DNA of 32,662 nt from an uncultured Oscillospiraceae bacterium. Lineage in GTDB: Bacteria > Bacillota > Clostridia > Oscillospirales > Oscillospiraceae. Position numbers and translations under genes: made by a program. The DNA is taken from NCBI GenBank assembly GCA_944386975.1, contig CALXDC010000033.1:1-32662 (forward strand), read 5' to 3'. The notes below the pieces were generated by a model. The model saw nothing but the letters and a program-made list of their open reading frames with translations. It ran no database searches and was not told where the DNA came from. Positions within the stretch are counted from its first letter, which is position 1, and each line of letters opens with the position of its first letter. Positions 56-17,187 of the stretch are shown in pieces.

Positions 56-178
56 AGAAAACGAGGTGTCCCAAATAGCAGGTGAAATATTAACATATTT
101 GCGAAAGTTTTTCCTGTAAAACCACCTCAAATACGCCCCCATATATTTGAATTTGCCGAGTGGGAGTAACTGCACGAA

Positions 179-213
179 CCCCGAGAAGCCTTGCGCCGCA
201 AGGCTTCTCGGGG
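179..213 (+). terminator. Strong intrinsic terminator
   Basis: Two 17-base arms (179-195 and 197-213) are perfectly complementary and are followed by TTTTCCTCTT. It would end transcription coming from left of the window. It also marks the gene-free border of the recombinase element. Confidence 0.75.
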
Positions 214-2189: not shown

Positions 2190-3850
2190 TTTCGTTCCTC
2201 CTTTATATCATTCCATTTTGAAATGTCAATCTGCTCTGCCTGGTCAATCCACTTTTGATATTTGGTAGGGCTGGTGACAGGGCCAATCACCGGGCGGTTT
2301 TCCCGCAGTCTCGGTGAGTCCTTTGCGCCTGTTTGGGGCTTTGGTGGTGAAACCACTGTGCCGTCGGTGATAAAATCCATACGATTTCCACTTTCACTGG
2401 TGATGCCATGAAACGTTACCACAATAGGTTCTTTGCCCGCAGTGATGCGGTATGCGCTGTATCCTGTCAGATCGACTGTTTTGCCTGGGACCGGACAGAT
2501 GGCGTTGTAATAGGGATGCCGGCTGTATTCCGGCAGAAATGTATGGCGTTCCAGCTGTCTGGCAATATCCGACTGCACATCATAATTTGTATAGTCCTTG
2601 TTACTGGTTTCCGAATTTTTGTGTCCCATGAGATAGTCCACATCTGCGGATGCCATCCCGCAGAGATGTATCGCACGCCCTGCCCAATCGCGGCGCAGAG
2701 CATAGGCTGATACATCGGTGTCCGGCACGCCATCGCTGTCCAAATCCGGCTCTCTTCGTGTCAGGGCCGCTACCAGTCGAAAGTTCGCCTTCTGAAAACC
2801 GCACAGTTGGAGCAATTCTTTTACAAAGGCTGACAGACCGGATGGGTCAGCATAACGGCAAGGGTCATCCGGATAAGAAACCAGAGGCATCTCGGCAATT
2901 TCCTCACTTGTATAACCAAGACTGCTGAGATAGTCCATCCGCTGAAGAATCAGATGATGCATCAGCGAGCCGCAGATACAATAGCGATAAGCGGCATCTG
3001 TCTTCAGCCGTGGAATGCGGTTCCCATTTTTGATTTGATAAAGAATCGGAATCACCACATATCCATCCCGCAATGAGATATCTCCAATTTTAACGGCGCA
3101 CGCTTCTGCAGTGCGGGTTCCACCGGTCTCCATCAGTCCCGCGCCCATCGCAAGTCCGTAATGCGGCATTTTTGTCAGCAGATGTGCAAACTTCACCCGG
3201 ACATCTTCGGGAATATATTTCACCTGGTCGGCCATGGGGAGCGCTTCGATTCCTTCCGTATTGAACAGCCGAGGCGGAAGTGCCGGATTCAGTTCATACA
3301 GCTGCTTCAGGATCCAGTTGACCCGGAGCAGATATTGAGACACGCTTTTGTTCGCCGTAACAGGATTTCCGTTGCTGCGTTTGCTCTTTAGTGCCTTTTC
3401 CACCAGGGCATCCTTGATCTCCGCAAAATCCGCAGAATCGGCTTCCGTACCCAGAGCGTCCAGTAGGCGCAGAATCCGATTCTCAAAATAAGTACAGGTC
3501 CACTTCATGGTATCGTCATCCCAATCCGGGTTGCGGATTCCCAGCTCTCGAAATACTTTGTAGGTCGCAGTATATACGCCGTATGAATCGTCTAATTTCA
3601 CTTTTGCGGCGCTTGGTATTGATTTTCCCTTGCATTCCTTTTCGATAAGATTGGCAAGAATCCCTGCTTCGTAGTTTTCATCCGCGATGGTCGGGTCGAA
3701 AGAACGCTGGTGTTTGGCCCCCATCCGCACGCCGGAGATGGTACTCTTTGCATAACCTGTCAGAATCACTTTGCGGCTTGATTTGATTCTGCTGGTAATA
3801 TGTGCACATATATCAGGGACACCAATATTGATATTTTTAGGAAAGCCCAT
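2186..3850 (-). CDS. Tyrosine recombinase of an integrated element
   Basis: This 554-aa protein is a site-specific tyrosine recombinase that should cut and rejoin DNA ends of the element. Visible residues are R246 in GTRTAE (box I), R386 in YALRRDWA (tyrosine replaces the usual histidine of HxxR), H410 in MGHKN, and nucleophile candidate Y420 in KDY. It is longer than typical integrases of 350-400 aa because of a long N-terminal region (1-210) that is probably for DNA binding. The reading frame continues upstream, but ATG 3850 has AGGAGG eight bases before it and is the likely start. It is the first gene of a two-gene operon, overlapping the 544-aa recombinase by 4 bp. Its ribosome site lies inside a hairpin. 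Confidence 0.85.
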   Translation of the reverse strand: MGFPKNINIGVPDICAHITSRIKSSRKVILTGYAKSTISGVRMGAKHQRSFDPTIADENYEAGILANLIEKECKGKSIPSAAKVKLDDSYGVYTATYKVFRELGIRNPDWDDDTMKWTCTYFENRILRLLDALGTEADSADFAEIKDALVEKALKSKRSNGNPVTANKSVSQYLLRVNWILKQLYELNPALPPRLFNTEGIEALPMADQVKYIPEDVRVKFAHLLTKMPHYGLAMGAGLMETGGTRTAEACAVKIGDISLRDGYVVIPILYQIKNGNRIPRLKTDAAYRYCICGSLMHHLILQRMDYLSSLGYTSEEIAEMPLVSYPDDPCRYADPSGLSAFVKELLQLCGFQKANFRLVAALTRREPDLDSDGVPDTDVSAYALRRDWAGRAIHLCGMASADVDYLMGHKNSETSNKDYTNYDVQSDIARQLERHTFLPEYSRHPYYNAICPVPGKTVDLTGYSAYRITAGKEPIVVTFHGITSESGNRMDFITDGTVVSPPKPQTGAKDSPRLRENRPVIGPVTSPTKYQKWIDQAEQIDISKWNDIKEERK

Positions 3851-3858
3851 GGTTATTT

Positions 3859-3905
3859 CCTCCTGTAACTGGAAAGCTTTGTTGAAAAGCTTCCATTTAC
3901 AGGAG
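3859..3905 (-). promoter_or_regulatory. Hairpin sequestering the recombinase ribosome site
   Basis: Positions 3861-3879 and 3887-3904 are inverted copies with one mismatch and one bulged base, and 3860 pairs with 3905. The Shine-Dalgarno of the 554-aa recombinase (CCTCCT on the plus strand, 3859-3864) falls almost wholly inside the stem. In mRNA this would lower initiation unless the stem is opened. This may keep recombinase levels low, or the inverted repeat may itself be a recombinase-binding site. Confidence 0.6.
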
Positions 3906-4016
3906 TATGGAATAAATAGACATTGCCACAATATACATCCATGTTCTGCTGTCGAAAATGGAGGTTTTGAATCCCCAAATACCGAATATTCCTACTTTAG
4001 CCCAGAAAAAGCTAAA

Positions 4017-4050
4017 AGCGGAGCGACCATCAAATGATGGACGCTCCGCT
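4017..4050 (-). terminator. Terminator of the XRE repressor gene
   Basis: The arms AGCGGAGCG/CGCTCCGCT and inner CCATC/GATGG form a long hairpin. On the minus strand it is followed by TTTAGCTTTTTC. It lies about 20 bases past the stop of the 70-aa repressor gene and separates that module from the recombinase operon. Confidence 0.75.
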
Positions 4051-4070
4051 ACAATCATGTACGATTATTT

Positions 4071-4283
4071 TTAATTGTTTTCATCCGGAATGTACTCAAC
4101 GATATCCTCAATGCGGCAATGAAGCGCTTTGCAGATTTTCCCCAGCGCCTCCATGGTCACCGGTTCGTCTTTCCCCATATGCGCCAGTGCATTGGAGTTG
4201 ATGCCCGCAACAGTTTTTAAATCTGTTCGCTTCATCTTATTCTTAATCAACAAGACCCAAAGCCGTTCATAGGACCATGCCAT
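4071..4283 (-). CDS. Small XRE/Cro-type HTH repressor
   Basis: This 70-aa protein is almost entirely a Cro/C1-type helix-turn-helix of the short YozG-like kind. A first helix (YERLWVLLIKNKMK) precedes the HTH (RTDLKTVAGINSNALAHMGK), then MEALGKICKALHCRIEDIVEY, a typical end of this fold. A GTG nine bases upstream also fits the frame. ATG 4283 is preferred because AGAGGTGGGG lies at proper distance before it. The gene diverges from the xis-int operon and a perfect palindrome lies between the two promoters. The likely role is repression of the excision genes, with autoregulation. The target is inferred from position. Confidence 0.8.
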   Translation of the reverse strand: MAWSYERLWVLLIKNKMKRTDLKTVAGINSNALAHMGKDEPVTMEALGKICKALHCRIEDIVEYIPDENN

Positions 4284-4302
4284 TCGCCCCACCTCTGAAA
4301 CT

Positions 4303-4331
4303 ATTTTAACCCAGAAAGAAAAAAATGTGAA
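4303..4331 (-). promoter_or_regulatory. Promoter of the XRE repressor gene
   Basis: On the minus strand TTCACA (4331-4326) and TAAAAT (4308-4303) are separated by 17 bp. It drives the 70-aa HTH gene that starts at 4283. Confidence 0.6.
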
Positions 4332-4338
4332 TACGTAG

Positions 4339-4353
4339 ATCTAAATTTTAGAT
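4339..4353. promoter_or_regulatory. Palindromic operator candidate
   Basis: ATCTAAATTTTAGAT is a perfect 7+1+7 palindrome. It lies exactly between the -35 boxes of the divergent repressor and xis-int promoters. This is where a small Cro-like dimer would control both. Confidence 0.6.
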
Positions 4354-4359
4354 TTAATA

Positions 4360-4388
4360 TTGACATTATAAATCCGTCGTGCTATTAT
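4360..4388 (+). promoter_or_regulatory. Promoter of the xis-int operon
   Basis: TTGACA (4360-4365) and TATTAT (4383-4388) are separated by 17 bp, a near-consensus sigma-A promoter. It is followed by a leader of about 250 bases before the excisionase gene. Confidence 0.75.
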
Positions 4389-4394
4389 ACTGAT

Positions 4395-4649
4395 AGAAAA
4401 TAAAACAACGGCAGTGCACGGGAGGTGCGAACTCCCATGCACCTGCGCAGGTGATACGAGCACCTACACAACGGATCTACATCCGCACCGCAGGATTAGT
4501 ATACCTTATTTTGCCCCCATAGGCAAGACAAGAATTTGTGGTGACGGAACAGTGTCCCGAACGCTGTCATACCGACCGCTTCACACCGTGTAGGCTTATG
4601 CCCTGCACGGTGTTTTGTTTTCCAAATTATCAGGAAAGGACGAAAAAAC
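4395..4649 (+). promoter_or_regulatory. Structured leader with internal terminator
   Basis: The leader is rich in complementary GGTGC/GCACC blocks (about 4420-4475), including the perfect palindrome CACCTGCGCAGGTG. It ends with a terminator: arms 4584-4594 and 4602-4612 pair with one G-U, followed by TTTTGTTTTCC. The terminator lies between the promoter and the first gene, so readthrough must be controlled, presumably by alternative pairing with upstream blocks or by a protein. I do not recognise it as a named riboswitch. Confidence 0.55.
4584..4612 (+). terminator. Attenuator hairpin before xis
   Basis: The arms CACCGTGTAGG and CCTGCACGGTG enclose CTTATGC and are followed at once by TTTTGTTTT. 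It ends 37 bases before the excisionase start codon, so it acts within the xis-int transcript. Confidence 0.65.
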
Positions 4650-4835
4650 ATGGAAAACAAGCGGTTTTTGAATGTGAACGACGTGGCGGACTATCTGGGC
4701 ATCTCTGTTCCCACCGCCTACAAAATCATCCGTCGTCTGAATGACGAGCTCAGCAAGATGGGGTACCTGACCGTATCCGGCCGTGTCAGCAAGACTTATT
4801 TCGAGCAGAAGGTCTACGGCGGTGTCACCGCGTAA
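4650..4835 (+). CDS. xis: Excisionase-family HTH protein
   Basis: This 61-aa protein has the MerR-like/excisionase helix-turn-helix: FLNVNDVADYLGISVPTAYK followed by the IIRRLNDEL recognition-helix end and a short wing (GYLTVSGRVSKTYFEQKVYG). Such proteins bend DNA at element ends and turn integrase toward excision. The length is typical. AGGAAAGG lies about 10 bases before the ATG. It is 11 bases upstream of the integrase gene, the usual xis-int order, and its control is likely through the divergent HTH repressor and the leader attenuator. The family is clear; activity on this element is inferred. Confidence 0.85.
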   Translation: MENKRFLNVNDVADYLGISVPTAYKIIRRLNDELSKMGYLTVSGRVSKTYFEQKVYGGVTA

Positions 4836-4846
4836 GGAGGTGCGCT

Positions 4847-5944
4847 ATGCCGGTTTACAAGGACAAGAAGAACAACACCTGGTATGTGAAGGGCCGCTAC
4901 AAGGACTGGACCGGAAAGACGAAGGACCTGATGAAACGCGGCTTTGCGCTGAAACGGGAAGCTGTGGAGTGGGAGGAAAACTTCCGCCTGCGTCTGGCCT
5001 CCAGCCTGGACATGACCTTCTCCGAATTCTGCCAGATCTACGCAGAGGATCTGGGTAGCCGCCTGAAAGACAGCACCTGGGAGACCAAGGCCGCCATCAT
5101 CAGGACAAAACTGCTGCCCTTTTTCGGAGCCATGCGTATGCGTGAGATTACCTCTGTGGAGATCATCCGCTGGCAGAACGAGATGATGAAGCAGAAGCTG
5201 CCAAACGGAAAGCCCTATTCCCAGACCTATCTGAAAACCCTCCACAATCAACTCAGTGCCATCTTTAATCACGCAGTGCGCTTCTACAAGCTGTCGGAGA
5301 ATCCGGCCCGAGTGGCCGGTGCCATCGGCGAGAAGGAGGGCGGTGAGATGAGCATCTGGTCGGAAGAGGAGTATCGCCGCTTTGCTGAGGCGGTGATGGA
5401 CAAGCCGGTTTCCTATTACTGCTTTGAGATGCTCTACTGGTGCGGCATCCGGGAGGGCGAACTGCTGGCGCTGACCCGGAAGGATTTCAACTTCAAAAAA
5501 CAGGAGGTCAGTATCTCCAAGACCTACCACCGCATCAAAGGAGAAGACCGCATCACCTCCCCCAAAACCAAACAGAGCATACGTGTCGTCTCTATGCCCG
5601 CATTTCTCTGTGAGGAGATTCAGGATTATTTCTCCATGGTGTACGACCTGCGGCCCAACGACAGGGCCTTTCCCGTGACCAAGAGTTTTCTCAGCCGGGA
5701 GCTGGAGCGCGGGGCGGCGGAGAGCGGCGTCAAACGCATTCGTGTTCACGATTTACGCCACTCCCATGTGTCGCTGCTCATCCATCTGGGATACAGCGCG
5801 GTGGCCATCGCCAAACGGGTGGGGCACAAAAGCATTGACATCACCTACCGCTATGCCCATCTGTTCCCCTCCATTCAGACCCAGATGGCCAGCCAGCTGG
5901 ATCAGCTTCGAGAGGAGGCAGACCATGTCGCAGAAGAATCTTGA
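4847..5944 (+). CDS. int: Site-specific tyrosine integrase
   Basis: This 365-aa integrase catalyses integration and excision of the mobile element. It has the usual three parts: an N-terminal arm-binding region (WYVKGRYKDWTGKTK, residues about 12-26), a SAM-like core-binding domain (about 55-150), and a catalytic domain. Catalytic residues are complete: R202 in GIREGELLALT, K240 in the beta-hairpin, H301 and R304 in HDLRH, H327 in GHKS, and Y336 in YRYAHLF. TAAGGAGG overlapping the end of xis serves as ribosome site. The 3' end overlaps the next gene by 20 bp. Length and domain order are normal for Tn916/phage-type integrases of Firmicutes. The attachment site was not found. Confidence 0.95.
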   Translation: MPVYKDKKNNTWYVKGRYKDWTGKTKDLMKRGFALKREAVEWEENFRLRLASSLDMTFSEFCQIYAEDLGSRLKDSTWETKAAIIRTKLLPFFGAMRMREITSVEIIRWQNEMMKQKLPNGKPYSQTYLKTLHNQLSAIFNHAVRFYKLSENPARVAGAIGEKEGGEMSIWSEEEYRRFAEAVMDKPVSYYCFEMLYWCGIREGELLALTRKDFNFKKQEVSISKTYHRIKGEDRITSPKTKQSIRVVSMPAFLCEEIQDYFSMVYDLRPNDRAFPVTKSFLSRELERGAAESGVKRIRVHDLRHSHVSLLIHLGYSAVAIAKRVGHKSIDITYRYAHLFPSIQTQMASQLDQLREEADHVAEES

Positions 5945-6245
5945 CCGGAAGGGCCGCTGGAGATGCCACACCGTAGCCTTTCGTGTATCGCCGGAGGAAC
6001 GGGAAGCAATTCGCATCAGGGCCAGACTTTGCGGGTTGACGCTGCAGGAATATATCACCCGGAGGTGTCAGGAACAGGAAGTGGTCGTGGTGGGCAATCC
6101 CCGGGTGTACAAAGCGTTGAAAACCCAGATGCAGCAGATTCTGGCCGCCTTGGAAGGTGCAGCGGAAGGAGGTGGGGCCTCCGAAGAACTGCTGGAAACC
6201 ATCCAATTTGTGGCACGGATTTTAGACGGTATGAACGTCGGCTAA
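5925..6245 (+). CDS. MobC-like ribbon-helix-helix mobilisation protein
   Basis: This 106-aa protein has HTVAFRVSPEEREAIRIRAR then GLTLQEYITRR, the pattern of the small RHH proteins annotated as plasmid mobilisation/relaxosome (MobC-like) factors. A VVGNPRVYKALKTQM stretch follows, common in the clostridial members, then a helical tail with AEGGGASEE. The family helps a relaxase recognise oriT or acts as a regulator. The start ATG 5925 lies inside the integrase gene and is preceded by GAGGAGG. The overlap shows it is co-translated with int. No relaxase gene is present in the window, so it may act on an oriT in trans or be left over from a larger element. Confidence 0.7.
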   Translation: MSQKNLDRKGRWRCHTVAFRVSPEEREAIRIRARLCGLTLQEYITRRCQEQEVVVVGNPRVYKALKTQMQQILAALEGAAEGGGASEELLETIQFVARILDGMNVG

Positions 6246-6291
6246 TGCCACAAGTACATTCCAAAATTTAAAAATCAAGGAGGAAAGCATT

Positions 6292-7194
6292 ATGAATGAA
6301 ATGCAAGGAATCAATCTCATTACTGTCGCGCAGAACCTTGCGACGGCAAACACCCCGGAAGGATTGCAGGAGGCTATGAAGCAGCTTCATCTGAGCTGTC
6401 TGACACAGCCCGTAGCGGTTGTACGCGAAATCTCCAGGCATCTGGAGGAAATCTCCAAAGTCCAGTTGGTGGACCGCGTGCGTGACACTGTGAAGAACGG
6501 AAAGTACAGTAAGGATGCAGCTGTCGCTCTGGAGGACGTGGAAAATCTTACCGCTCCCGTTCTCGCCGCACCGATTCTCAGTGAGAAGGCCCGTCAACTC
6601 GCACTTCACGTGGAGTGCCTGATCTCGCTGCGGAGTTACTGCAGCCAGCGCGTACAGATGCTGGAGGCCATCCAGCATCTCCCCGGCGAAGAAGCGGAGG
6701 CACTCGCCGGGATGTTGACCGACCGTCTCACCGTTCTGCTCATCCTGGAGGTGCTGGTAGAGAAGGCAGCCGGCGACAAAGCGCTCAACCGGCAGATTGA
6801 CCTCTGGCAGATGCTCTATATTGCCCGGACGGAGGGACAGGTGGAGCTGGCGCCCTATTTCTTGGCACTGGACGAAGGGGACACCATACAGTGCCTGCTG
6901 CCCTGCTGCATCCCTTATGAAGCCTCCGCCAAAACGTATTACAGATGCGCCGGGATTCTCAAGGCTCTGGTGCATCAGAAGGAAATCCGGGAGTACGAGG
7001 CGTTGGTACATTCTCTTCACGGCAAGGTGGAACAGAAAGTGATATACCGCGTCAGCTGTGGTCGGGATGACGAGGATACGATGGCTCTGGAAGAACTCTA
7101 TGTGCTGCTGCGCGTCGCTTTGCATAACGCCGGTCCCGTTGTTTGGGAGTATCCCCGCTTTGAGAAAATCAAGAAGAATCTGGAGGAAAACTGA
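6292..7194 (+). CDS. Unknown element cargo protein A (300 aa)
   Basis: I do not recognise this protein. It is soluble, mostly helical and mildly acidic, with no signal peptide or membrane segment. Notable patches are a leucine/glutamine-rich N-terminal half resembling helical repeats (LQEAMKQLHL, AVVREISRHLEEI, MLEAIQHLPGEEAEALAG) and a cysteine cluster near residue 203 (CLLPCCIPY). AAGGAGG lies at about 6279, ten bases before the ATG. It starts 46 bases after the MobC-like gene and is separated by one base from the next unknown gene, so int, the MobC-like gene and the two unknown genes likely form one operon. Cargo or element-maintenance roles are both possible. Confidence 0.75.
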   Translation: MNEMQGINLITVAQNLATANTPEGLQEAMKQLHLSCLTQPVAVVREISRHLEEISKVQLVDRVRDTVKNGKYSKDAAVALEDVENLTAPVLAAPILSEKARQLALHVECLISLRSYCSQRVQMLEAIQHLPGEEAEALAGMLTDRLTVLLILEVLVEKAAGDKALNRQIDLWQMLYIARTEGQVELAPYFLALDEGDTIQCLLPCCIPYEASAKTYYRCAGILKALVHQKEIREYEALVHSLHGKVEQKVIYRVSCGRDDEDTMALEELYVLLRVALHNAGPVVWEYPRFEKIKKNLEEN

Positions 7195-7195
7195 T

Positions 7196-8014
7196 ATGAA
7201 TTGGATGAATTATCCCATGCTTCACAATTTGGCCCGCGTTCTGACCACCGCCCCTCGGGGGCGGCTGGTCGAGACGGTGCTGGCCCAGGTACAGACCTGG
7301 CAGGCAGCCGTGTCCGACACGGATTTGATGATGTTTCAGACGCTTCACTATGAAGTCTACGAGGCGCTGAAAGCCGACGTAGCGGCTTTGGAACTGCGCG
7401 ATATGGGTTCTCCCAGCCTGCACGCGGCGCTGCACGCCGCCGCGGTGTTGGACGAGCTGCGGGAGGGCACCGGATGCTGTCAGCCCACCTGGGAGGGTGA
7501 GGAGCTGAGTCTGGTACCGCCGGAGACCCGGAAACTCTGGTGGAGTGCGCCGGAAAGCGACGAGGAAGCTGAAGATGCGGTGATGGACACCCTGGCGGTC
7601 CTGATGGCCCAGACCCTCAACTATCCCCTGTCTCTGGAACTGACCCAATACCTGGTAACCTACGTGCTGGTGTTGGAACTGGAAAGGGTCAAACCGGAAA
7701 ACCATCCCCGCAGGGAAACAGCCCGCTGCATGAAGCTGGCCAAGTATCTCACCCCCTGGGAGCGCCGCCACTCCATTGCCTACATCTGCCATCAGGACGG
7801 GGAGATTTTCCTGCTGGACGGTGAAATCGACAGCGGGACCTGTGAGGACTATCTGAACGCCATCCGTCAGGTAGAGCAGCTGGTAGACCATGATACCTTG
7901 AAACGCCATTTGATTGACCGCACCGCTCAGCCCTGCTTTGACTTTGAACTGGAAAAGGCGGTCCATATCTGGCTGGGCGACGAGTATAAGCGCTGGGGAA
8001 GACTGGCGGAGTAA
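7196..8014 (+). CDS. Unknown element cargo protein B (272 aa)
   Basis: I do not recognise this protein. It appears soluble and helical, with tryptophan-containing patches (QPTWEGEELSLVPPE, RKLWWSAPESDEEAED) and a C-terminal part IAYICHQDGEIFLLDGEIDS that looks like beta strands. The ATG follows the previous stop by one base, with GGAGG nine bases ahead, so it is coupled to protein A. The ORF could be read 46 codons farther upstream, but that part overlaps protein A. A 5'-truncated, frameshifted second copy of its last two thirds lies at 15,901-16,446, so the gene belongs to a repeated mobile element type. A hairpin terminator follows at once. Confidence 0.75.
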   Translation: MNWMNYPMLHNLARVLTTAPRGRLVETVLAQVQTWQAAVSDTDLMMFQTLHYEVYEALKADVAALELRDMGSPSLHAALHAAAVLDELREGTGCCQPTWEGEELSLVPPETRKLWWSAPESDEEAEDAVMDTLAVLMAQTLNYPLSLELTQYLVTYVLVLELERVKPENHPRRETARCMKLAKYLTPWERRHSIAYICHQDGEIFLLDGEIDSGTCEDYLNAIRQVEQLVDHDTLKRHLIDRTAQPCFDFELEKAVHIWLGDEYKRWGRLAE

Positions 8015-8096
8015 CCACAAAGAGGCCGCCCGAATGGGCGGTCTCTTACCAATAAAAGACAATTCTCTGTATGACTGCCCACAGGCAAGGTATACC
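7469..8096. repeat. Direct repeat copy 1 (3' part of cargo gene B and terminator)
   Basis: Sequence from 7469 to about 8096 recurs at 15,901-16,521 in the same orientation, offset by about 8,430 bp. Identity is very high through the gene end and the terminator hairpin, then weakens in the last 50 bases (CTGTATGACTGCC against CTGTATAATTGCC). The repeats flank the ATPase/kinase-helicase island and could recombine to delete it. Confidence 0.85.
8021..8046 (+). terminator. Terminator of the integrase/cargo operon
   Basis: The arms AGAGGCCGCCC and GGGCGGTCTCT enclose GAAT. The hairpin begins six bases after the stop codon of cargo gene B. The T-tract is short. A sister hairpin follows the second, broken copy at 16,455-16,476. 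Confidence 0.65.
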
Positions 8097-8336
8097 AATG
8101 TGGAGTTTACCGGTTCTGTCTCTGCCGACAGTGGCTACCGTGTCACGGAAAAGGATGGCACCTACACTGTGGAAGAGTACACCCCGTCCTCCGGTGGCTC
8201 TGGCACCAGCGACTTCGCTGTGACTGTGGAGAAGGCCACCAACGGTACCGTGACTGCCTCCGCCTCCTGCGCTGCCAAGGGCACCAAGGTTAAGTATTTT
8301 CGAAATCTGGATAGCGGCGCTTCTATATGTAAATGA
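8085..8336 (+). pseudogene. Fragment of a repeat-bearing surface protein
   Basis: One frame here encodes GYRVTEKDGTYTVEEYTPS, then SGTSDFAVTVEKATNGTVTA and SASCAAKGTKV. This is the pattern of beta-repeat domains in large clostridial S-layer-like surface proteins. There is no start codon or ribosome site of its own, and homology-like sequence stops near 8296, followed by unrelated residues and a stop at 8336. It begins right where the element repeat ends, so it looks like a gene piece left at an insertion or deletion junction. The family is named by pattern only. Confidence 0.5.
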
Positions 8337-8396
8337 CAATCAAGAAGCAGCGAAATGCGCTGACTTGGCAACTGACAAACAGGATTACTAAAAAGG

Positions 8397-8436
8397 CCGG
8401 CGCGTTATTTCGCAAGGAAATGGCGCGCCGGTTTTT
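8397..8436 (+). terminator. Intrinsic terminator
   Basis: CCGGCGCG (8397-8404) and CGCGCCGG (8424-8431) pair, with an inner ATTTC/GAAAT stem, followed by TTTTT. It isolates the surface-protein remnant from the ATPase gene downstream. Confidence 0.75.
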
Positions 8437-8609
8437 CGTATATTTTCAATATAAATAAGTGGCAAACTGTCCAATGCGCAGCCTTCCTTTCATCCCATTT
8501 GAATTACAAACCGCTTTGCACTTTTGTATGGAAGCATTTTTGATATCAAACGCTCCCCGCACATTATTCCCTCAACAGATTGTGGAATGTTCCGAAACGG
8601 GAATTTTTA

Positions 8610-8638
8610 TTGATTTTCTGCATAATATGTTCTATAAT
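8610..8638 (+). promoter_or_regulatory. Promoter of the AAA_14 ATPase gene
   Basis: TTGATT (8610-8615) and TATAAT (8633-8638) are separated by exactly 17 bp. It lies 30 bases before the GTG start of the ATPase gene. The AT-rich stretch 8437-8609 before it has no convincing gene. Confidence 0.7.
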
Positions 8639-8668
8639 GGAAATATCTAAAATGCGGAGGTGATTGCA

Positions 8669-9892
8669 GTGGTAGAACGGAGAGAATATCTTGACCAACT
8701 GATTCAGTGGAAGGATGAACAGGTAATTAAGGTGGTGACCGGGATTCGCCGGTGTGGAAAATCCACCCTCCTGACGCAGTACCAGTCCTGGTTAAAAGAC
8801 AGCGGCATTTCTGAGAAGCAGATTGTTTCTGTTAACTTTGAAGAGCTGGAGTATGAGGAGTTGCTGGATTATAAAAGGCTGTATGCGTATTTGAAGGCGC
8901 GGCTGGTGTCGGGGGAAAAGACCTACATCTTCCTGGATGAAATTCAGAAGGTCCCCGCTTTTGAAAAGGTCGTAGACAGCCTGTATGTCAAGCCGGATGT
9001 TGACATCTATATCACAGGCTCCAATGCCTATATGCTTTCCGGCGACCTTGCGACCCTTTTGACCGGGCGGTATGTGGAGATCAAGATGCTGCCGCTTTCG
9101 TTCCGGGAATATCTCACCATGACAGAACTGGAGAAGGACCGTGGATTTGCGGAGTATCTGAAAACCGGCGGCCTTCCTTATCTGACGGTAATGGACCGTA
9201 CCCCGCAAAAGGTGGAAACTTATTTGGAGGGCATCTACAATACTGTGATCGTCAAGGATATCGAAGACCGGCAGGCCCGCAAAGAGAGCGACCCATCCAA
9301 ACGAAAGATCACCGACATTGCCCTTTTGAAATCCATCGCAAAGTACCTTGCCAGCGTAGTGGGCAGCCCCATCTCGATTCGGAGCATCACCGATTATCTA
9401 ACCTCCAGCGGCAGAAAGATCTCCCCCAACACAGTGAATGACTATGTGGAGGCGTTGACGGAATCTTTTATCTTTTATCCGGCAGACCGTTTTGATATTG
9501 TCGGCAAGCAGCTTTTGAAGATCAACAAGAAAATGTATATCGTTGATCTGGGGCTTCGCAACCACATCCTGCCGAGGAGAAACTATGATCTCGGGTTTTC
9601 CTTGGAGAACATCGTCTACTTTGAACTCCTGCGCCGGGGCTATAAGGTGATGATCGGCAAGATCGGAAGCACCGAGGTGGACTTTGTCGCGGAAAAGCAG
9701 GGCGTGTACACCTATGTTCAGGTGACTGCGGATATGACCGCAGAAGAAACCTTTGAGCGGGAAATGCGGCCATTGACGCTCATCCGCGACAATTACGAAA
9801 AGGTCATCCTCACAGCCGACCACCTGACAATTGGAAACTATAACGGCATCCAGGTCAAGAATCTGGTTGAATGGCTGCTGGGCCTGGATTAG
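8669..9892 (+). CDS. AAA_14/DUF4143 family ATPase
   Basis: This 407-aa protein is an AAA-type ATPase of the AAA_14 plus DUF4143 kind. The P-loop is GIRRCGKST (about 25-33), Walker B is TYIFLDEIQ (about 90), and sensor-like YITGSNAYMLS follows. The middle has the typical FREYL and GGLPYL...YLEGIYNTVIVKDI segments. The DUF4143 C-terminal part ends with EVDFVAEKQGVYTYVQVT, a PD-(D/E)xK-like nuclease core seen in the family. The role of the family is unsettled. Members are very common in gut bacteria, often near mobile DNA. GTG 8669 is chosen because GCGGAGG lies eight bases ahead; the GTG at 8660 overlaps that ribosome site. It has its own promoter and terminator. Confidence 0.9.
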   Translation: MVERREYLDQLIQWKDEQVIKVVTGIRRCGKSTLLTQYQSWLKDSGISEKQIVSVNFEELEYEELLDYKRLYAYLKARLVSGEKTYIFLDEIQKVPAFEKVVDSLYVKPDVDIYITGSNAYMLSGDLATLLTGRYVEIKMLPLSFREYLTMTELEKDRGFAEYLKTGGLPYLTVMDRTPQKVETYLEGIYNTVIVKDIEDRQARKESDPSKRKITDIALLKSIAKYLASVVGSPISIRSITDYLTSSGRKISPNTVNDYVEALTESFIFYPADRFDIVGKQLLKINKKMYIVDLGLRNHILPRRNYDLGFSLENIVYFELLRRGYKVMIGKIGSTEVDFVAEKQGVYTYVQVTADMTAEETFEREMRPLTLIRDNYEKVILTADHLTIGNYNGIQVKNLVEWLLGLD

Positions 9893-10015: not shown

Positions 10016-11320
10016 TCACACTCCTGCAAGATCATTCCAGAGTGTGCTGATCTGGGCGGGATCAAATGTTATTTCGGCGCACAGCTTGTAGAGACGGCGC
10101 CGATAGATGGTTTCCTTGGCTGCATATTGGCCCTGGATGGCACAAGCGGTGCCGAAGCAGAACTTCACAGAAGAGATTTCCTCGGAAGGGACTGCGGTCA
10201 ATGCGCAGTCTTTCCGCAGCTTTTTCATCCTGCCCAATATGAAATCGGCCTGATAATCGTCCGGGTTATAATGGACAATGACCTCCTTCGTATGAGCGGA
10301 GAAAATTGCGCGCAGGATGTCGTCATTGAGCAGTTCCGCCAGATACGGCGCCTGGATGAAAATGCGCTGTGCCTTGAAAGCGGCACAATGGTACAGGATA
10401 TCCTGAAGCTCACCATCCAGCAACGGGCGGTCCGCGTAATAGGTAGCCTCCAGAGAATCTGTCCAATCGCTCTGCATCCCACGGAGCTTGTACGCTGCAA
10501 TCAGATCATTGGGCAGCTGCTCCTTCGCCGGGGAAGCGGTGCAGGGGCGGCTGGGCGGAGAGAAGAGGTTCCAGGCGCCCAAGTGCCGGCAGTGAAGCTG
10601 TTCCGCCAGCGCATCCGCGTAGGCTTGGATCCCCGACTGGAAGTGAAAGGCCAGAGAACGGTCCGCCTGGTTCCGATAAACGAAGCAGAATTCGCGCTGA
10701 TAGGACAGCGTGTGGTAGGAGATATCGAGGATCCGATACAGCTCAGCGCTCTCCGCGGCGTTCTGGAACACCGTATTTGCCAGCCGGCTTTCCCGGTAAA
10801 TTGCCGCCAGCGTATCAAACTTGCTGCGGAGGAATTCCAGATTGAGTGGATATACCTCCAGCAGGTATGCCTGCCCCCGCGGCGGCTCCCGGTAGGTGCC
10901 CAGGAGGGGCGCGTCTGAGATCTCTCCGGTGACCTGGTTTACCGATATGCGGCTGAGCTGGCTGCGCAGGGTCTTGACCTTCTTCTGGGTCTCCAGTACC
11001 TTTTTCCCCAAATCGGTCAGGACGATGTCGCCGCAGGAAACAGCGGCGAACTGCTCGCTGTCCAGCTGCGATACGATTTGCAGCATAATGCTCTCCGGCA
11101 GGCCGAACTGACTGGCAAGGTCGGGGAGGGATTTGGCGCCGATGCGGATGGCAGTGAGGACACATTCCTGAACAAAGGAGAGCACCTGGACACGCCGTTC
11201 CCAGACCGTCAGGCCGATTTCTTGTACAGGAATATAGACCGGGACCCGGCAGATGAAATCATAGCCGGAAAGCTGCGGAGGAATGTATTTTTCAACATTT
11301 TTTTGCCATTCAGACAGCAT
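10016..11320 (-). CDS. Winged-helix protein with degenerate PLD-like C-terminus
   Basis: This 434-aa protein has an N-terminal region with a winged-helix look (about 45-110: LTAIRIGAKSLPDLASQFGL, then DIVLTDLGKKVLE) after a PVYIPVQEIGL strand motif. The C-terminal part (about 316-420) follows a phospholipase D-like pattern: AQRIFIQAPYLAELL, then EVIVHYNPDD, then SSVKFCFGTACAIQGQYA where active PLD enzymes have HxK(x4)D. Here serine replaces histidine and the aspartate is missing, so it is probably not an active nuclease or lipase. It starts 11 bases inside the kinase-helicase gene, so the two are co-translated and likely form one complex. It may be a DNA-binding or sensor subunit. The PLD link is by-eye and moderate. 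Confidence 0.75.
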   Translation of the reverse strand: MLSEWQKNVEKYIPPQLSGYDFICRVPVYIPVQEIGLTVWERRVQVLSFVQECVLTAIRIGAKSLPDLASQFGLPESIMLQIVSQLDSEQFAAVSCGDIVLTDLGKKVLETQKKVKTLRSQLSRISVNQVTGEISDAPLLGTYREPPRGQAYLLEVYPLNLEFLRSKFDTLAAIYRESRLANTVFQNAAESAELYRILDISYHTLSYQREFCFVYRNQADRSLAFHFQSGIQAYADALAEQLHCRHLGAWNLFSPPSRPCTASPAKEQLPNDLIAAYKLRGMQSDWTDSLEATYYADRPLLDGELQDILYHCAAFKAQRIFIQAPYLAELLNDDILRAIFSAHTKEVIVHYNPDDYQADFILGRMKKLRKDCALTAVPSEEISSVKFCFGTACAIQGQYAAKETIYRRRLYKLCAEITFDPAQISTLWNDLAGV

Positions 11321-14300
11321 TGGTAAGCTCCTTTATATCGATTTCCTGACAAAATTCGGGATGCTCCTGCATATAACCGATTACATAGGGGAAGCGGTTG
11401 CCGGGAATACGGGGATTGCGGAGAAACTTTCCGTCACCGACAATAATCAGGGCCCGTTTGGCACGGGAGAAGGCGACGTTCAACCGTGCTTCCTCTTTCA
11501 AGAAACCGATACGCCGCTGATTGCTGCTTCGGACGGTGGAGTAGATGATGATATCACGCTGGCTGCCCTGGAATGCATCCACGGTGTTGATATCGACTTC
11601 AATGTGGCTCAACGGGATTTGCTTGAGGCGGTTCCGGATCAGCTCCAGCTGCGCTCGGTACGGCGTGATGATGCCGATGGAATACGTCTCCCCCTGAGCG
11701 GCGATTTCCTGGTTCAGCCTTTGCAGGCAGCTTTGGATCACAGTGACTTCCAGATGGTTGATGTATCCGCGCTGGTGACCGACGGACTGCTCAAAGCGGG
11801 CGGGACCGGCTTTGGAGGTGGTCAGCCAGGTGATGGCGCGGCCGTTGAGCATGGGAAGGTTGGTGGTTCGCTCCGATGCCTTCACGCCGTTCTGCACTTT
11901 GCCGTCGTAAAAGAGAAGGCTGATGAGATCGCCAATCGCCGGATGCATCCGGTACTGGGTGGAAAGCGTCTCCTTGCAGCTGTCGGGCAGAATCTCAAAC
12001 AGCTTTCCGAACCCGGTGTTTTGAAGTTCAGCGATCTGGGTGGACTGGAAGCTGGCTTTGAGGGCATTTCGGTCAAAGACCGGCGGGAGCTGCTTGTGGT
12101 CACCCACCAGAATGGCTTTCCGTGCCCGGACCAGGGGAACCATGATTTCCGGCAGGGTTGCCTTTGCCGCCTCGTCTACAATTACGTAGTCAAAGGTTGT
12201 GTCACGGACCCGAGGGTCCGAAATGACACCGATGCAGGTGCCTACAATGATGGAGGCGTTTTTGATATAAAACTCTCCCAGCTCATTGCTTTCGCTGATG
12301 CGTCGGATCCATTGTTCGGAAATCAGGCAGCTCTGCAAGTAGGGATTGGTACGGCTTTTCCCGTAAGTGTTTTCAAAGCCTGCAGCGATCCGTTCCAGAC
12401 GTGCGCGCTCTGTTTCTTCCAGATTTGCAAGCTTCAGTTCTTCCAACACTTGCGCGTATTTACAGAACGGCTCCATGGGGATGTGCTGTTCCGATAAACG
12501 CTGGGCCAGCCATGCTTTGCAGTTCTCAATGCTTTCCTTTACCCATAGGGCCTGGCAGTGCTCCAATCCGAAACGGTCATTGATCTTGGGGTCAATGTTC
12601 TCTTCGCGGCCGATGCGGATGGTCGTATGCTCCAGATAGGCTGCAAGGTCCTCCAGTAGTTTATCCACGGCGGCATGGGATTGAGATACAATCAAAATTT
12701 TCTGATCCAGTGCGGGATTCCGCTGATTTTCCCCCAGAATCTGCCGAATCACTTCCACCAGAACGTTGGTTTTGCCGGTACCTGGAGGACCTTGGATCAA
12801 GGCTATATCCTCCGCTTCCAGCGCTTTCCGGACGGCGCGCTTCTGGGTGAAATCCAGCTGCTCATTATAGAAGCGGGGCGTGGTCTTGAGTTGAAAATAC
12901 CCAGGCTGCTCAGCACCTACGAAAATACCCTTGAGGTTGCCGCCGTTGACGGTTTCTGAGCGGCGGAATTCCTCCAGCGCCGCTTCCTGACGGCGGTATT
13001 GCTGGATCTCTTTGCGGTAATCCAGGCAGATAGAGCCGTTGTTCGGCAGACGGGGCTTCCTGGGTGCGGCCTTGACGGCCATCACGGCGCCGTCCTCCCG
13101 GTATTCCCAGAAGGTACCCACCTCTGCCAGAATTGGATTCTTTTTGAACCGTCCGCGCTGTTCGAAAATAAACAGGGTATCCTGGCTGAACGCCTCGTCG
13201 GGCACGCTGTCCGGGTCCAGCCGGAAAAGGAACATCCCGTCTTCGTAGCGGACGCTGGTGTAGTACAGCCGGACAGTATTCTTAGACGCGTCTGCAATCA
13301 TGGCCTGGATGAATTCCCGCCAGATACCGTACTGCGCGTCGTATTCCCGGTCGATGTTTTTCTGCGAGTAGATATCCGCTTGGAAATCAGCAATCCGGTT
13401 GCTCAGGATCTGGCTGCAATTGTTGGGGAGAGGGGTGTTTGCAATTTTGTGTGAAAACAGGAATTGAAAATGCCCGGGAACCTCCATGGAAAAGCGCTTG
13501 TGCTGCTCCCGCTTGAAGGCATCCAGCCTGCGGAAAGAGACTACCTGGAAAAAATCGTCTGACAAAACGCATTCCATGGAGATGCTGATGCCGTCAAAGC
13601 AATAAATGGAGGCCTGACCCTCGGTGCGAAGCCGGATCAAGCCGCCCGTGAACTGGGCGGGAAGGAAGCTATCCAGCAGCTCCAGGTAGGGCATCTCCCG
13701 CCGTACCAGGTTGCGTTTTTTCAGATCATCGAGTACGTTGGTGGGGACGGCGAAGAAGTACCGCTCGTCACTGCCGCAGTACCGCTGGTAGAGGGGAGCC
13801 AGGGCCAGCTCGCAGTCGTCAATATTTTCATATCGGTCCGCCGGGGCGGGGGCGCACATTTTCAGCAGGACTTCCTTTAGCTTTACGTCGATACCGCCGG
13901 CGGATTGGATGGCCGCAGACATTTCGGAAGCCGCCACCGGGACTTCACCGGTAAAAAGGAAGTAAATTACGGCGCCCAACGAATAGATGTCGCTGCGCTC
14001 GGTGGCGTTTTCACTGTGGACGGTCACTTCCGGCGCAGAATAATTCTGGGTGGCAAACTGATATGTGGTTCCGTCCTGGAACATCCCACGGATTTTTGCG
14101 ATTCCGAAATCAATCAGCTTCAGCTCAAACGACTCGGTAATGAGGATGTTGGAGGGATTGATATCCCGGTGGATCACGGAGTTCCGATGGGCGTGCTGGA
14201 TGGCGTTGGTCAGCTGCTTCACCAGGTTGTACCGGGTGGAGGCGTTCGGGATCACATCCAGCATCTGGGACAGGGGACGCCCCTGGACATACTCCATGGA

Positions 14301-14549
14301 AATGATGCCTTCACTCCGGCCATCCGGAGCGGTCTGAATATCCGAGCGGAAGATACGGACAATATTTTCACAGGCCTTTAATCGTGTCAGTGCCTGCGTT
14401 TCCTTCTGGAAAATGGCCCGGTAAATAGGGGTTTCCAGATTCTGGATGCGTTTTACCACAAAGCGAAACCCTGCTTCGTTTTCCACCAGCTCTACAATTG
14501 TTCCGGAGTCCTTCTGCTTACTCAGCGTCTGAATCACTTTTTGCTCCAT
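11310..14549 (-). CDS. Ser/Thr kinase fused to UPF1-like SF1 helicase
   Basis: This is a 1079-aa two-enzyme fusion. Residues 1-250 form a Hanks-type kinase: VVK (K33), HRDINPSN (D129), DFG (147-149) and APE (172-174), with a weak glycine loop. Residues 260-560 are an unassigned linker domain. Residues 565-1045 form a UPF1/SMUBP2-type superfamily 1 helicase: DFTQ, GPPGTGKT (587-594), VDEAA (791-795), GDHKQLPP (816-823), STQYRMHP (863-870), VDAFQGSQRD (about 990-999) and NVAFSRAKRAL (1024-1034). All core residues look intact. ATG 14549 is preferred over farther upstream codons because AAAGGAAC precedes it. Co-translation with the winged-helix/PLD-like gene and position in a mobile-element island suggest a phage or plasmid defence role. 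That role is inference. Confidence 0.9.
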   Translation of the reverse strand: MEQKVIQTLSKQKDSGTIVELVENEAGFRFVVKRIQNLETPIYRAIFQKETQALTRLKACENIVRIFRSDIQTAPDGRSEGIISMEYVQGRPLSQMLDVIPNASTRYNLVKQLTNAIQHAHRNSVIHRDINPSNILITESFELKLIDFGIAKIRGMFQDGTTYQFATQNYSAPEVTVHSENATERSDIYSLGAVIYFLFTGEVPVAASEMSAAIQSAGGIDVKLKEVLLKMCAPAPADRYENIDDCELALAPLYQRYCGSDERYFFAVPTNVLDDLKKRNLVRREMPYLELLDSFLPAQFTGGLIRLRTEGQASIYCFDGISISMECVLSDDFFQVVSFRRLDAFKREQHKRFSMEVPGHFQFLFSHKIANTPLPNNCSQILSNRIADFQADIYSQKNIDREYDAQYGIWREFIQAMIADASKNTVRLYYTSVRYEDGMFLFRLDPDSVPDEAFSQDTLFIFEQRGRFKKNPILAEVGTFWEYREDGAVMAVKAAPRKPRLPNNGSICLDYRKEIQQYRRQEAALEEFRRSETVNGGNLKGIFVGAEQPGYFQLKTTPRFYNEQLDFTQKRAVRKALEAEDIALIQGPPGTGKTNVLVEVIRQILGENQRNPALDQKILIVSQSHAAVDKLLEDLAAYLEHTTIRIGREENIDPKINDRFGLEHCQALWVKESIENCKAWLAQRLSEQHIPMEPFCKYAQVLEELKLANLEETERARLERIAAGFENTYGKSRTNPYLQSCLISEQWIRRISESNELGEFYIKNASIIVGTCIGVISDPRVRDTTFDYVIVDEAAKATLPEIMVPLVRARKAILVGDHKQLPPVFDRNALKASFQSTQIAELQNTGFGKLFEILPDSCKETLSTQYRMHPAIGDLISLLFYDGKVQNGVKASERTTNLPMLNGRAITWLTTSKAGPARFEQSVGHQRGYINHLEVTVIQSCLQRLNQEIAAQGETYSIGIITPYRAQLELIRNRLKQIPLSHIEVDINTVDAFQGSQRDIIIYSTVRSSNQRRIGFLKEEARLNVAFSRAKRALIIVGDGKFLRNPRIPGNRFPYVIGYMQEHPEFCQEIDIKELTNAV

Positions 14550-14607
14550 GAATTGTTCCTTTCTTACCTCGATAGATGGCTTGAATGCATGGTAACAGGA
14601 TATAAAA

Positions 14608-14636
14608 AGTATAGCATAGTTGATGGATATCTGCAA
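14608..14636 (-). promoter_or_regulatory. Promoter of the kinase-helicase operon
   Basis: On the minus strand TTGCAG (14636-14631) and TATACT (14613-14608) are 17 bp apart, about 60 bases before the start codon. A second TTGACA-GATATA pair lies just upstream and may be an alternative. Confidence 0.55.
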
Positions 14637-14682
14637 TTGTATATCGTCTATCAAACAACCAGTGTCAAATTTTCAACCCAAA

Positions 14683-15900: not shown

Positions 15901-16446
15901 ACTGGATGCTGTCAGCCCACCTGGGAGGGTGAGGAACTGAGTCTGGTACCGCCGGAGACCCGGAAACTCTGGTGGAGCGCGCCGGAAAGCGACGAGGAAG
16001 CTGAAGATTCAGTGGTGGAGACCCTGGCGGTGCTGATGGCCCAGACGATTAACGATCCCTTGTCTCTGGAACTGACCCAATACATGGTAACCTACGTGCT
16101 GGCGTTGGAACTGGAAAAGGTCAAACCGAAAAACCACCCCCGCAGGGAGACCGCCCGCTGTGCCAAGCTGGCCAAGTATCTCACCCCCCTGGGAGCGCCG
16201 CCATTCCATCGCCTACATCTGCCATCGGGGCGGGGAGATTTTCCTGCTGGACGGTGAAATCGACAGCGGAACCTGCGAGGACTATCTGAATGCCATCCGT
16301 CAGGCGGAGCAGTGGGTAAGCCATGCCGCCTTGAAACGCCATTTGATCGACCGCACCGCTCGCCCTGCTTTGACTTTGAATTGGAAAAGGCGGTTCATAT
16401 CTGGCTGGGCGACGAGTATAAGCACCGGGGAAGACTGGCGGAGTAA
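15901..16446 (+). pseudogene. Truncated, frameshifted second copy of cargo gene B
   Basis: This copy matches codons from about residue 93 to the end of the 272-aa cargo protein at 7,196-8,014, with scattered substitutions. The 5' third is absent and replaced by AT-rich DNA. One extra C in the C-run near 16,184-16,190 (six instead of five) and one missing base near 16,361 shift the frame and then restore it. It therefore cannot make the intact protein. The downstream hairpin and about 45 further bases also match. It is a relic of a related element, or of an unequal duplication. Confidence 0.9.
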
Positions 16447-16454
16447 CCACAAAG

Positions 16455-16476
16455 AGGCCGCCCGAATGGGCGGCCT
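16455..16476 (+). terminator. Terminator hairpin, second copy
   Basis: AGGCCGCCC and GGGCGGCCT pair perfectly around GAAT. It is the counterpart of the hairpin at 8,021-8,046, located the same distance after the broken gene copy. Confidence 0.6.
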
Positions 16477-16771: not shown

Positions 16772-16800
16772 CATGAAATTTCATGCGCGCAGGGCGCACC
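16772..16800 (-). other. oriT-like nick core beside a palindrome
   Basis: CATGAAATTTCATG (16,772-16,785) is a perfect palindrome. Six bases farther, the minus strand reads GTGCGCCCT (16,799-16,791). This nonamer is the core around the nick site of IncQ/pIP501-class (MobA-type) transfer origins. The usual inverted repeat 5' of the core is not evident. With a MobC-like gene at 5,925 it may be a relic transfer origin. Tentative. Confidence 0.35.
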
Positions 16801-16871
16801 ACAAAAACAGGCAAAAACGGGGCGCATGAAGTTTTCGCGCATGTGGGCCGACGCATACGCTATGATTTCAT

Positions 16872-16929
16872 GGCCGTGCCGCTCACAGCGGCAGATGGCC
16901 GTTTTTTGCTATGCTTTGCATAGCAAAAA
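16872..16929. repeat. Two adjacent perfect hairpins
   Basis: GCCGCT/AGCGGC around CAC (16,878-16,892) sits inside a GGCC pair. Next to it TTTTTGCTATGC/GCATAGCAAAAA (16,903-16,929) forms a perfect 12-bp stem with a TTT loop. They lie about 70 to 130 bases from the oriT-like motif and may belong to a transfer-origin or replication region of a decayed element. Confidence 0.5.
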
Positions 16930-17043
16930 GACCCTCTTACGATCCGAAACGATGGAGAAGGGATTGCCGCCGCAGTGTACAGCTGGCGCTGGCGCAGTCT
17001 CAGAAGACCGATGCACATGAGCCGGAATTGGTGGAGGAACACT

Positions 17044-17187
17044 ATGTCTGGCTGGAATATGAAGCAGTTGGATCATAAGTATACTCCTTCAGCACTGCCT
17101 GTCAGAAAACTTTTACTATTGGAGGAACCGCAGGCTTCTTTCCGGGACCAACTGGAGGCGCGAGAAAAATATCGAAATTATTTATAA
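17044..17187 (+). CDS. Possible small ORF (47 aa)
   Basis: The ATG at 17,044 has GGAGG six bases upstream and opens a 47-codon frame containing ALPVRKLLLLEEPQASFRDQ and a charged end (LEAREKYRNYL). It overlaps the end of another open frame (16,866-17,078, ending EEHYVWLEYEAVGS) that has no clear start. The overlapping, acidic-ended layout resembles coupled genes of a mobile element, but both are short and unrecognised. They may be remnants. Confidence 0.3.
   Translation: MSGWNMKQLDHKYTPSALPVRKLLLLEEPQASFRDQLEAREKYRNYL

Follow-up and report, generated by a model that had tools for sequence, protein, structure and literature searches.

The founding paper on Mokosh is reportedly that of Millman in 2022. 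The published descriptions give Mokosh, an anti-phage system, as an RNA helicase together with a phospholipase D (PLD) nuclease by which viral transcripts or other nucleic acid of the phage are degraded (accessible parts of PMC11291487 and PMC11672841). Type I has one gene for the helicase, an RNA helicase of COG1112, and another for the PLD nuclease, together with a Ser/Thr kinase domain, and in type II one protein contains both the helicase and the PLD (accessible part of PMC11672841); the mechanism is given as unknown in a 2026 review (accessible part of PMC12926258). The present analysis concerns two overlapping genes on the reverse strand of a 32,662-nucleotide stretch of DNA, hereafter the window, which is one whole contig (C33, CALXDC010000033.1) of the 2.66-Mb draft genome of an uncultured, gut-type Oscillospiraceae bacterium. 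Judging from their sequences, the two genes are almost certainly mkoA and mkoB of Mokosh type I, and the PLD of MkoB is very probably not a nuclease in the window. We read the pair, with a probability of about 0.55, as a Mokosh type I module of a lineage with a dead PLD, in which the kinase would be set on by engagement of the helicase and phosphorylation would be the output.

Identity and architecture of the gene pair

The features of the pair are as follows.

11310..14549, (−) strand: mkoA, encoding a 1079-residue protein with a Ser/Thr kinase, a linker and a UPF1/IGHMBP2-like superfamily 1 (SF1) helicase (open reading frame (ORF), Pfam, PADLOC)
13785..14513, (−) strand: MkoA kinase domain, approximately residues 13–255; K33, HRD 127–129, DFG 147–149, APE 172–174
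12870..13784, (−) strand: MkoA linker, residues 256–560, without a Pfam match of its own
11370..12869, (−) strand: MkoA SF1 helicase domain, approximately residues 561–1060; Walker A GPPGTGKT 587–594, DEAAK 792–796
10016..11320, (−) strand: mkoB, encoding a 434-residue protein with a winged helix and a degenerate PLD fold (ORF, PADLOC, AlphaFold2, Foldseek)
10988..11176, (−) strand: MkoB winged helix, approximately residues 49–111; MarR-like by Foldseek, weak sequence support
10019..10435, (−) strand: C-terminal PLD-fold part of MkoB, residues 296–434 (AlphaFold2 and Foldseek)
10148..10174, (−) strand: site of MkoB equivalent to HxKx4D, residues 383–391, SSVKFCFGT; H and D lost
11328..11333, (−) strand: AAGGAG in the 3′ end of mkoA, read from the sequence, a likely ribosome-binding site for mkoB
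10028..14641, (−) strand: cassette common to the window and Flavonifractor plautii ATCC 29863, 89% identity

In PADLOC, the first protein was matched by the MkoA models PDLC03921 (1.7e-187) and PDLC03920 (9.9e-180, over residues 13–1068), and the second by the MkoB models PDLC03923 (1.1e-26, residues 17–231) and PDLC03922 (1.5e-15). The MkoA models also matched all of five kin examined, and the MkoB models two of the five at the strict limit of 1e-40, the remaining three giving MkoB matches at 1.2e-29 to 4.5e-17. Because PADLOC names both proteins, the pair is not an unnamed one. The original prediction, made from the window sequence, had not recognised it as a named system and had itself listed a match to a described defence system as grounds against its view; such a match was found, and the reading as an unnamed system was rejected.

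The start of MkoA was placed at the ATG at 14549, where AAAGGA lies just upstream; a longer listed ORF begins at the TTG at 14654. By ORF reading, mkoA and mkoB overlap at 11310–11320, and the AAGGAG sits 7 nt upstream of the MkoB ATG, within the end of mkoA. Pfam matched MkoA with Pkinase (2.5e-34), AAA_11 (6.4e-44) and AAA_12 (2.7e-51). The helicase is nearest to IGHMBP2/UPF1 proteins, where the NCBIfam IGHMBP2 model scores 286.8, under its cut-off of 348.9. MkoB gave no Pfam match above the cut-off, PLD included. One polypeptide with an intact Hanks-type kinase and an intact UPF1-like helicase, followed by a gene overlapping it by 11 bp, is what had been predicted, and the ORFs, the Pfam matches, the motif residues and the coordinates agree with it.

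The PLD fold of MkoB and the conservation of the pair

The AlphaFold2 model of the window MkoB, computed with 20 alignment rows, has a mean predicted local distance difference test (pLDDT) score of 87.7. Against the PDB, Foldseek paired this model with MITD1 (7.2e-05, the best match), NucT (6.4e-04), Zucchini (2.7e-03) and Nuc (1.5e-02), and its winged helix with MarR-type proteins at a root-mean-square deviation of 1.4–2.6; just six matches have E ≤ 0.001, with template modelling (TM) scores by target of 0.34–0.54. A PDB sequence search with MkoB profiles gave weak matches only. The HxKx4D motif was not found in the window MkoB, where the site aligned to it, residues 383–391, reads SSVKFCFGT. 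The single HxK of the protein (HTK, 343–345) lies elsewhere and has no D at the right distance. AlphaFold2, Foldseek and the motif scan thus agree with the predicted winged helix and PLD-like part lacking the catalytic HxK/D, and the further suggestion that this part is structural or sensing is probably right.

The loss extends well beyond the window. HxKx4D is kept in five of 39 full-length MkoB and lost in 34, in a set that leans to the clade of the window, because the scan described below used patterns taken from that clade and was limited to the best 80 loci. Accordingly, 5/39 is not a natural frequency; L079, which is cut by a contig end, stands outside the PLD counts. The five carriers are L037 and L071, from the phylum of the window, and copies on Anabaena, Pseudanabaena and Nostoc plasmids. 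In a tree of MkoA, the window falls in a clade of 28 rows, nearly all Bacillota, with a support of 97 in the Shimodaira–Hasegawa-like approximate likelihood ratio test (SH-aLRT), and an intact PLD occurs in none of its 27 labelled rows. The tree is a quick search with midpoint rooting, in which the PLD label needs two changes and the starred branches force only one. No paper on a dead PLD in Mokosh was found in a literature search that covered few subscription papers and preprints.

The motifs of MkoA are kept throughout. All 35 MkoA rows of the main set, which excludes the plasmid rows and G345, a remote relative described below, have intact HRD, DFG, Walker A and DEA[AG][KR] motifs, and K33 is present in 34 of them, the remaining row being cut by a contig end. 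HRD, DFG and Walker A also occur in all three plasmid rows, where Walker B reads DEAS or DEAG. In the comparison of the window with F. plautii ATCC 29863, the ratio of nonsynonymous to synonymous substitution rates (dN/dS) is 0.049 for MkoA and 0.104 for MkoB. Within MkoA, it is 0.035 in the kinase, 0.056 in the linker and 0.053 in the helicase; within MkoB, the winged-helix part has 0.066, the middle 0.110 and the PLD-like part 0.105. The dead PLD is therefore kept under purifying selection, less strictly than the catalytic domains. The distance between HRD and Walker A is 454–474 residues in the clade of the window versus 454–496 in the rows with an intact PLD, and, because it is no longer than in the latter, there is no sign of a substitute domain gained in MkoA. 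A new nuclease domain in MkoA was rejected on this distance, the fold of the linker itself not having been predicted.

Recurrence, mobility and genomic context

MkoB was searched in 200 genomes of the family, 398 of the phylum and 391 of the class, and also in the classes of G228 (250 genomes) and G816 (291 genomes); these samples overlap. A genome was included when it gave an MkoB profile match at E ≤ 1e-12 or a direct match to the window, its own genome being counted. MkoA lies directly upstream of MkoB in all 11 such genomes, where one MkoA (L069, genome G1085) is broken by an insertion. The MkoB model itself matched in 77 of the 391 class genomes; among the matches listed, most are short winged-helix stretches, and the long matches were used.

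From the other side, genome contigs were scanned with an MkoA alignment and with the patterns [IV]IHRDINP and IDFGI[ACS]KI, and the best 80 loci were kept. Among these, 28 (L076–L103) match over most of MkoA, the others mainly over the kinase. All 28 have an ORF in the place of MkoB, with a gap of −74 to +10 bp, the ORF of L079 being the one cut by the contig end. This MkoB was recognised by phmmer with the window MkoB at E < 1e-3 in 24 of the 28 and by position in the other four, one of which (L097) was also recognised by the profile. Three of these loci coincide with genomes of the first search and were counted once (L078 = G1073, L097 = G1002, L101 = G645), and L092/L093 and L079/L095/L101 are near copies. 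The pairing thus held in every genome and MkoA locus of both sets when the co-occurrence check proposed in the original prediction was made. Because the dN/dS values are low (0.049 and 0.104) and the arrangement recurs in distant genomes, the pair is more than a chance neighbourhood. A tblastn search of plasmids and phages with the window MkoB gave no match at 1e-5, none of the viral contigs was confirmed to carry MkoB and MkoA, and the locus of G726 (L043) has neither gene.

Between two genomes of the Flavonifractor type, the pair is mobile as a cassette of 4.6 kb. The window and the 17.2-kb F. plautii locus have a single block of homology, which ends on both sides, and in F. plautii three genes that encode serine-recombinase domains come next after the cassette. 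A tyrosine integrase lies in the window at 4847–5944, approximately 4 kb from the pair. The cassette occurs in two of 11 genomes of the genus, its own included, where the second copy is 100% identical in DNA, and MkoB in three of 200 genomes of the family, its own included, one of them being a weak partial match.

Several other elements surround the pair. A direct repeat of approximately 580 bp (7469–8044 and 15901–16476, 90–96% identity, spacing 8432 bp) flanks the Mokosh region, and a sequence of approximately 158 bp at about 16772–16930 has many dispersed copies across the genomes of the genus, mostly at 74–82% identity, and no Rfam match in the window. At 555–3931 on the (−) strand, two large ORFs adjoin each other, the second of which has a weak phage-integrase match below the cut-off; they may form a paired module of tyrosine recombinases. 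Nothing was found by Rfam at gathering scores or by a tRNA scan. In a search for the empty site, the backbone common with G1212 was found to start at 17083 of the window, and the left edge was not found.

Among the kin, neighbours match a type I restriction enzyme model (L092) and a type II methyltransferase model (L084), and type II CBASS genes adjoin the copy on the Nostoc plasmid. At that locus (L162 7717–12267), the Mokosh type I pair with an intact PLD lies near genes annotated as cGAS-like, E2 and Mov34/JAB-type and near an HNH endonuclease. In L071, an extra gene at 7554–8948, kinase-like by eye and without a Pfam match at 0.01, lies directly downstream of the PLD-intact mkoB.

Remoter relatives are arranged differently. 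The L074 locus of G642 (2673–9656) has three genes, namely one that is kinase-like by eye (in Pfam, only DUF4145), a UPF1-like helicase without a kinase and a winged-helix gene, and its sequence suggests a relative of Mokosh type I in split form. In G936 (L042 6642–11853), two separate kinase-type ORFs and a helicase ORF without a fused kinase are followed by a winged-helix frame (G936:C21:12114–12302) that matches the MkoB model, another split arrangement. In G345 (L163), which is a long branch, the MkoB adjoining the MkoA-like gene is without HxKx4D.

Five further kin (L096–L100) have a longer MkoB of 575–593 residues and form a clade of their own (SH-aLRT 99), which groups with the PLD-intact rows (93), apart from the clade of the window. 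Their MkoB, whose coordinates are listed below, are without HxKx4D and have RNxxxH at residues 515–530 in five of five, where no other MkoB row has it.

L096 5191–6930: MkoB with RNxxxH
L097 10002–11729: MkoB with RNxxxH
L098 9990–11771: MkoB with RNxxxH
L099 4130–5869: MkoB with RNxxxH
L100 5312–7078: MkoB with RNxxxH

An Rx4H motif is read as HEPN, and the RNxxxH of these proteins may represent, at the level of a motif, a nuclease swap within Mokosh. The model of one longer MkoB is middling (pLDDT 73.2, predicted TM score 0.48) and has a helical C-terminus. Foldseek paired the L097 MkoB model with PLD folds and with TrmB/TrmBL2; HEPN was absent among its 50 listed matches, and Pfam gave no HEPN match at E ≤ 1. 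The HEPN-like reading is therefore a lead at the motif level. In the literature search above, the HEPN passages found, in the accessible parts of their sources, concern other systems.

Mechanism and comparison with known systems

In the proposed mechanism, the helicase of MkoA would engage foreign nucleic acid, RNA or an RNA–DNA hybrid, as proposed for Mokosh, and the winged helix and pseudo-PLD of MkoB would serve to bind nucleic acid or MkoA. The ATP-driven engagement would then switch on the kinase of MkoA, and phosphorylation of MkoB, of host targets or of both would be the output. We infer the defence function of the window copy, its ligand, the order of activation and the role of the kinase as effector. 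The results suggest that something other than a PLD cutter does the work in the window pair. Since the nuclease site is gone and MkoA shows no sign of a gained domain, the output would have to come from either the kinase or the helicase. The kinase is tentatively regarded as the main output, and is favoured over the helicase alone because HRD and DFG are invariant in 35 rows and the dN/dS of the kinase is the lowest. The earlier view of the kinase as a signalling switch is plausible and fits this residue conservation, and it is kept here in conditional form.

An ordinary Mokosh type I, in which MkoB is the nuclease effector on phage nucleic acid, guided by the helicase, and the kinase is regulatory, would fit the named family, the same gene order, the HxKx4D of L037, L071 and the three cyanobacterial plasmid copies, and the published description as helicase, PLD nuclease and kinase (accessible part of PMC11672841). 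It is nevertheless improbable for the window, where HxKx4D is missing, as it is in 27 of 27 scored rows of the clade, and the residues aligned to it vary among relatives. The alternative of a helicase output, in which MkoA acts on phage RNA or R-loops by stripping or unwinding, host nucleases finish the work, the kinase only tunes it and the pseudo-PLD serves as a platform binding RNA or protein, is rather unlikely. The helicase motifs are intact in 35 of 35 rows, G642 and G936 keep helicase and winged-helix genes together with no fused kinase, and G345 has Walker A without DFG, all of which would suit a helicase output; however, HRD and DFG are invariant in the main set and present in the three plasmid rows, and the kinase dN/dS of 0.035, the lowest of the domains, exceeds the expectation for an optional tuner.

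A housekeeping or regulatory module, with the winged helix and the dead PLD as a TrmB-type regulator and the kinase in signalling, would agree with the Foldseek result for the L097 MkoB model of the other clade, which finds TrmB/TrmBL2, a winged helix with a sensor domain. The cassette is patchy (two of 11 genus genomes; MkoB in three of 200 family genomes), stands in unrelated contexts in two genomes and adjoins serine recombinases in F. plautii, and its genes match named defence models; the housekeeping reading is thus quite improbable and was rejected on the patchy, mobile distribution. Decay, in which loss of the PLD site marks inactivation of the system, would account for the lost active site and for the mkoA of L069 broken by an insertion. 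Both ORFs of the window are open, at dN/dS values of 0.049 and 0.104, and the dead-PLD state is common to a clade of 28 rows, nearly all Bacillota, so that a decaying remnant is highly improbable; the pseudogene reading was rejected on dN/dS.

Several observations weigh against our favoured reading of the pair. The match of the MkoB model to the window is partial, covering residues 17–231 only, and the models and motif counts from AlphaFold2, Foldseek and the scan leave room for an unusual active site. The invariant kinase residues would fit a regulatory kinase equally well. No known defence gene was found directly beside the window pair in a Pfam and NCBIfam scan, PADLOC not being part of it. 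Around the kin, PADLOC at 1e-20 matched two of 10 large neighbour ORFs, which were chosen by size, and 95 neighbour ORFs gave mixed PADLOC matches with no matched control and hence no measure of enrichment. No kinase is fused to the helicase in G642 (profile match 3.4e-8) or G936; in G119, the contig of 4.6 kb carries a weak MkoB-like stretch with a broken frame, but no MkoA; and in G345 the MkoA-like protein (L163 9156–14626) has a kinase without DFG, an intact Walker A and no Walker B match. Because G345 is without DFG and others are without a fused kinase, the fused kinase is not required in every branch.

On a wider and more speculative reading, a large, mainly Bacillota branch of Mokosh would be without a PLD nuclease, with the kinase as an effector triggered by the helicase and the pseudo-PLD as a sensor, and the C-terminus of MkoB would be a replaceable effector slot holding a PLD nuclease, a dead PLD, or a dead PLD with a HEPN-like RNase. 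If so, cutting of nucleic acid would not be the conserved core of Mokosh. A branch that has kinase and helicase and has lost the nuclease site is a natural experiment separating the parts, and it points to the first mutants to make. The PADLOC models of MkoA and MkoB match nuclease-intact and nuclease-dead systems alike.

Compared with known proteins and systems, MITD1 has the PLD-like domain that best matched the window MkoB in Foldseek. That domain is catalytically dead and binds membranes, and MITD1 is a eukaryotic cytokinesis protein that is not known to have a winged helix or a helicase partner. TrmB/TrmBL2 join a winged helix to a domain that Foldseek paired with the L097 MkoB model, from another clade, but the 50 matches listed for the window model do not include them, and these regulators are not known to have a linked kinase-helicase gene. 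The PglW (BREX) and MAD6 kinases are, as in MkoA, Hanks kinases within a defence protein, and the kinase part matches PglW at 9.8e-18 and MADS6 at 9.2e-35; however, the scores are far under the curated cut-offs (PglW 63.3 bits versus an NCBIfam cut-off of 990), and the partners of PglW and MAD6 kinases are other than those of MkoA. Mokosh type II (MkoC) has a UPF1-like helicase, and the MkoC model matches MkoA at 4.3e-40, with its best stretch in the helicase part, but the window has two genes and a kinase instead of a single helicase–PLD protein.

The closest system is Mokosh type I. As there, a kinase is fused to a COG1112/UPF1-like helicase in MkoA, a PLD-fold gene follows directly, PADLOC matches both, and the gene order is that of the PLD-intact copies. 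The window differs in that its MkoB is without the catalytic HxKx4D and in the span from Walker A to Walker B, which is 205 residues in the window (162–208 in the clade) versus 267–313 in the four PLD-intact copies where it was measurable. The pair is of a known kind in an unusual variant; its novelty is smaller than the original prediction hoped, and what is most useful in it is the dead PLD, correctly seen in that prediction.

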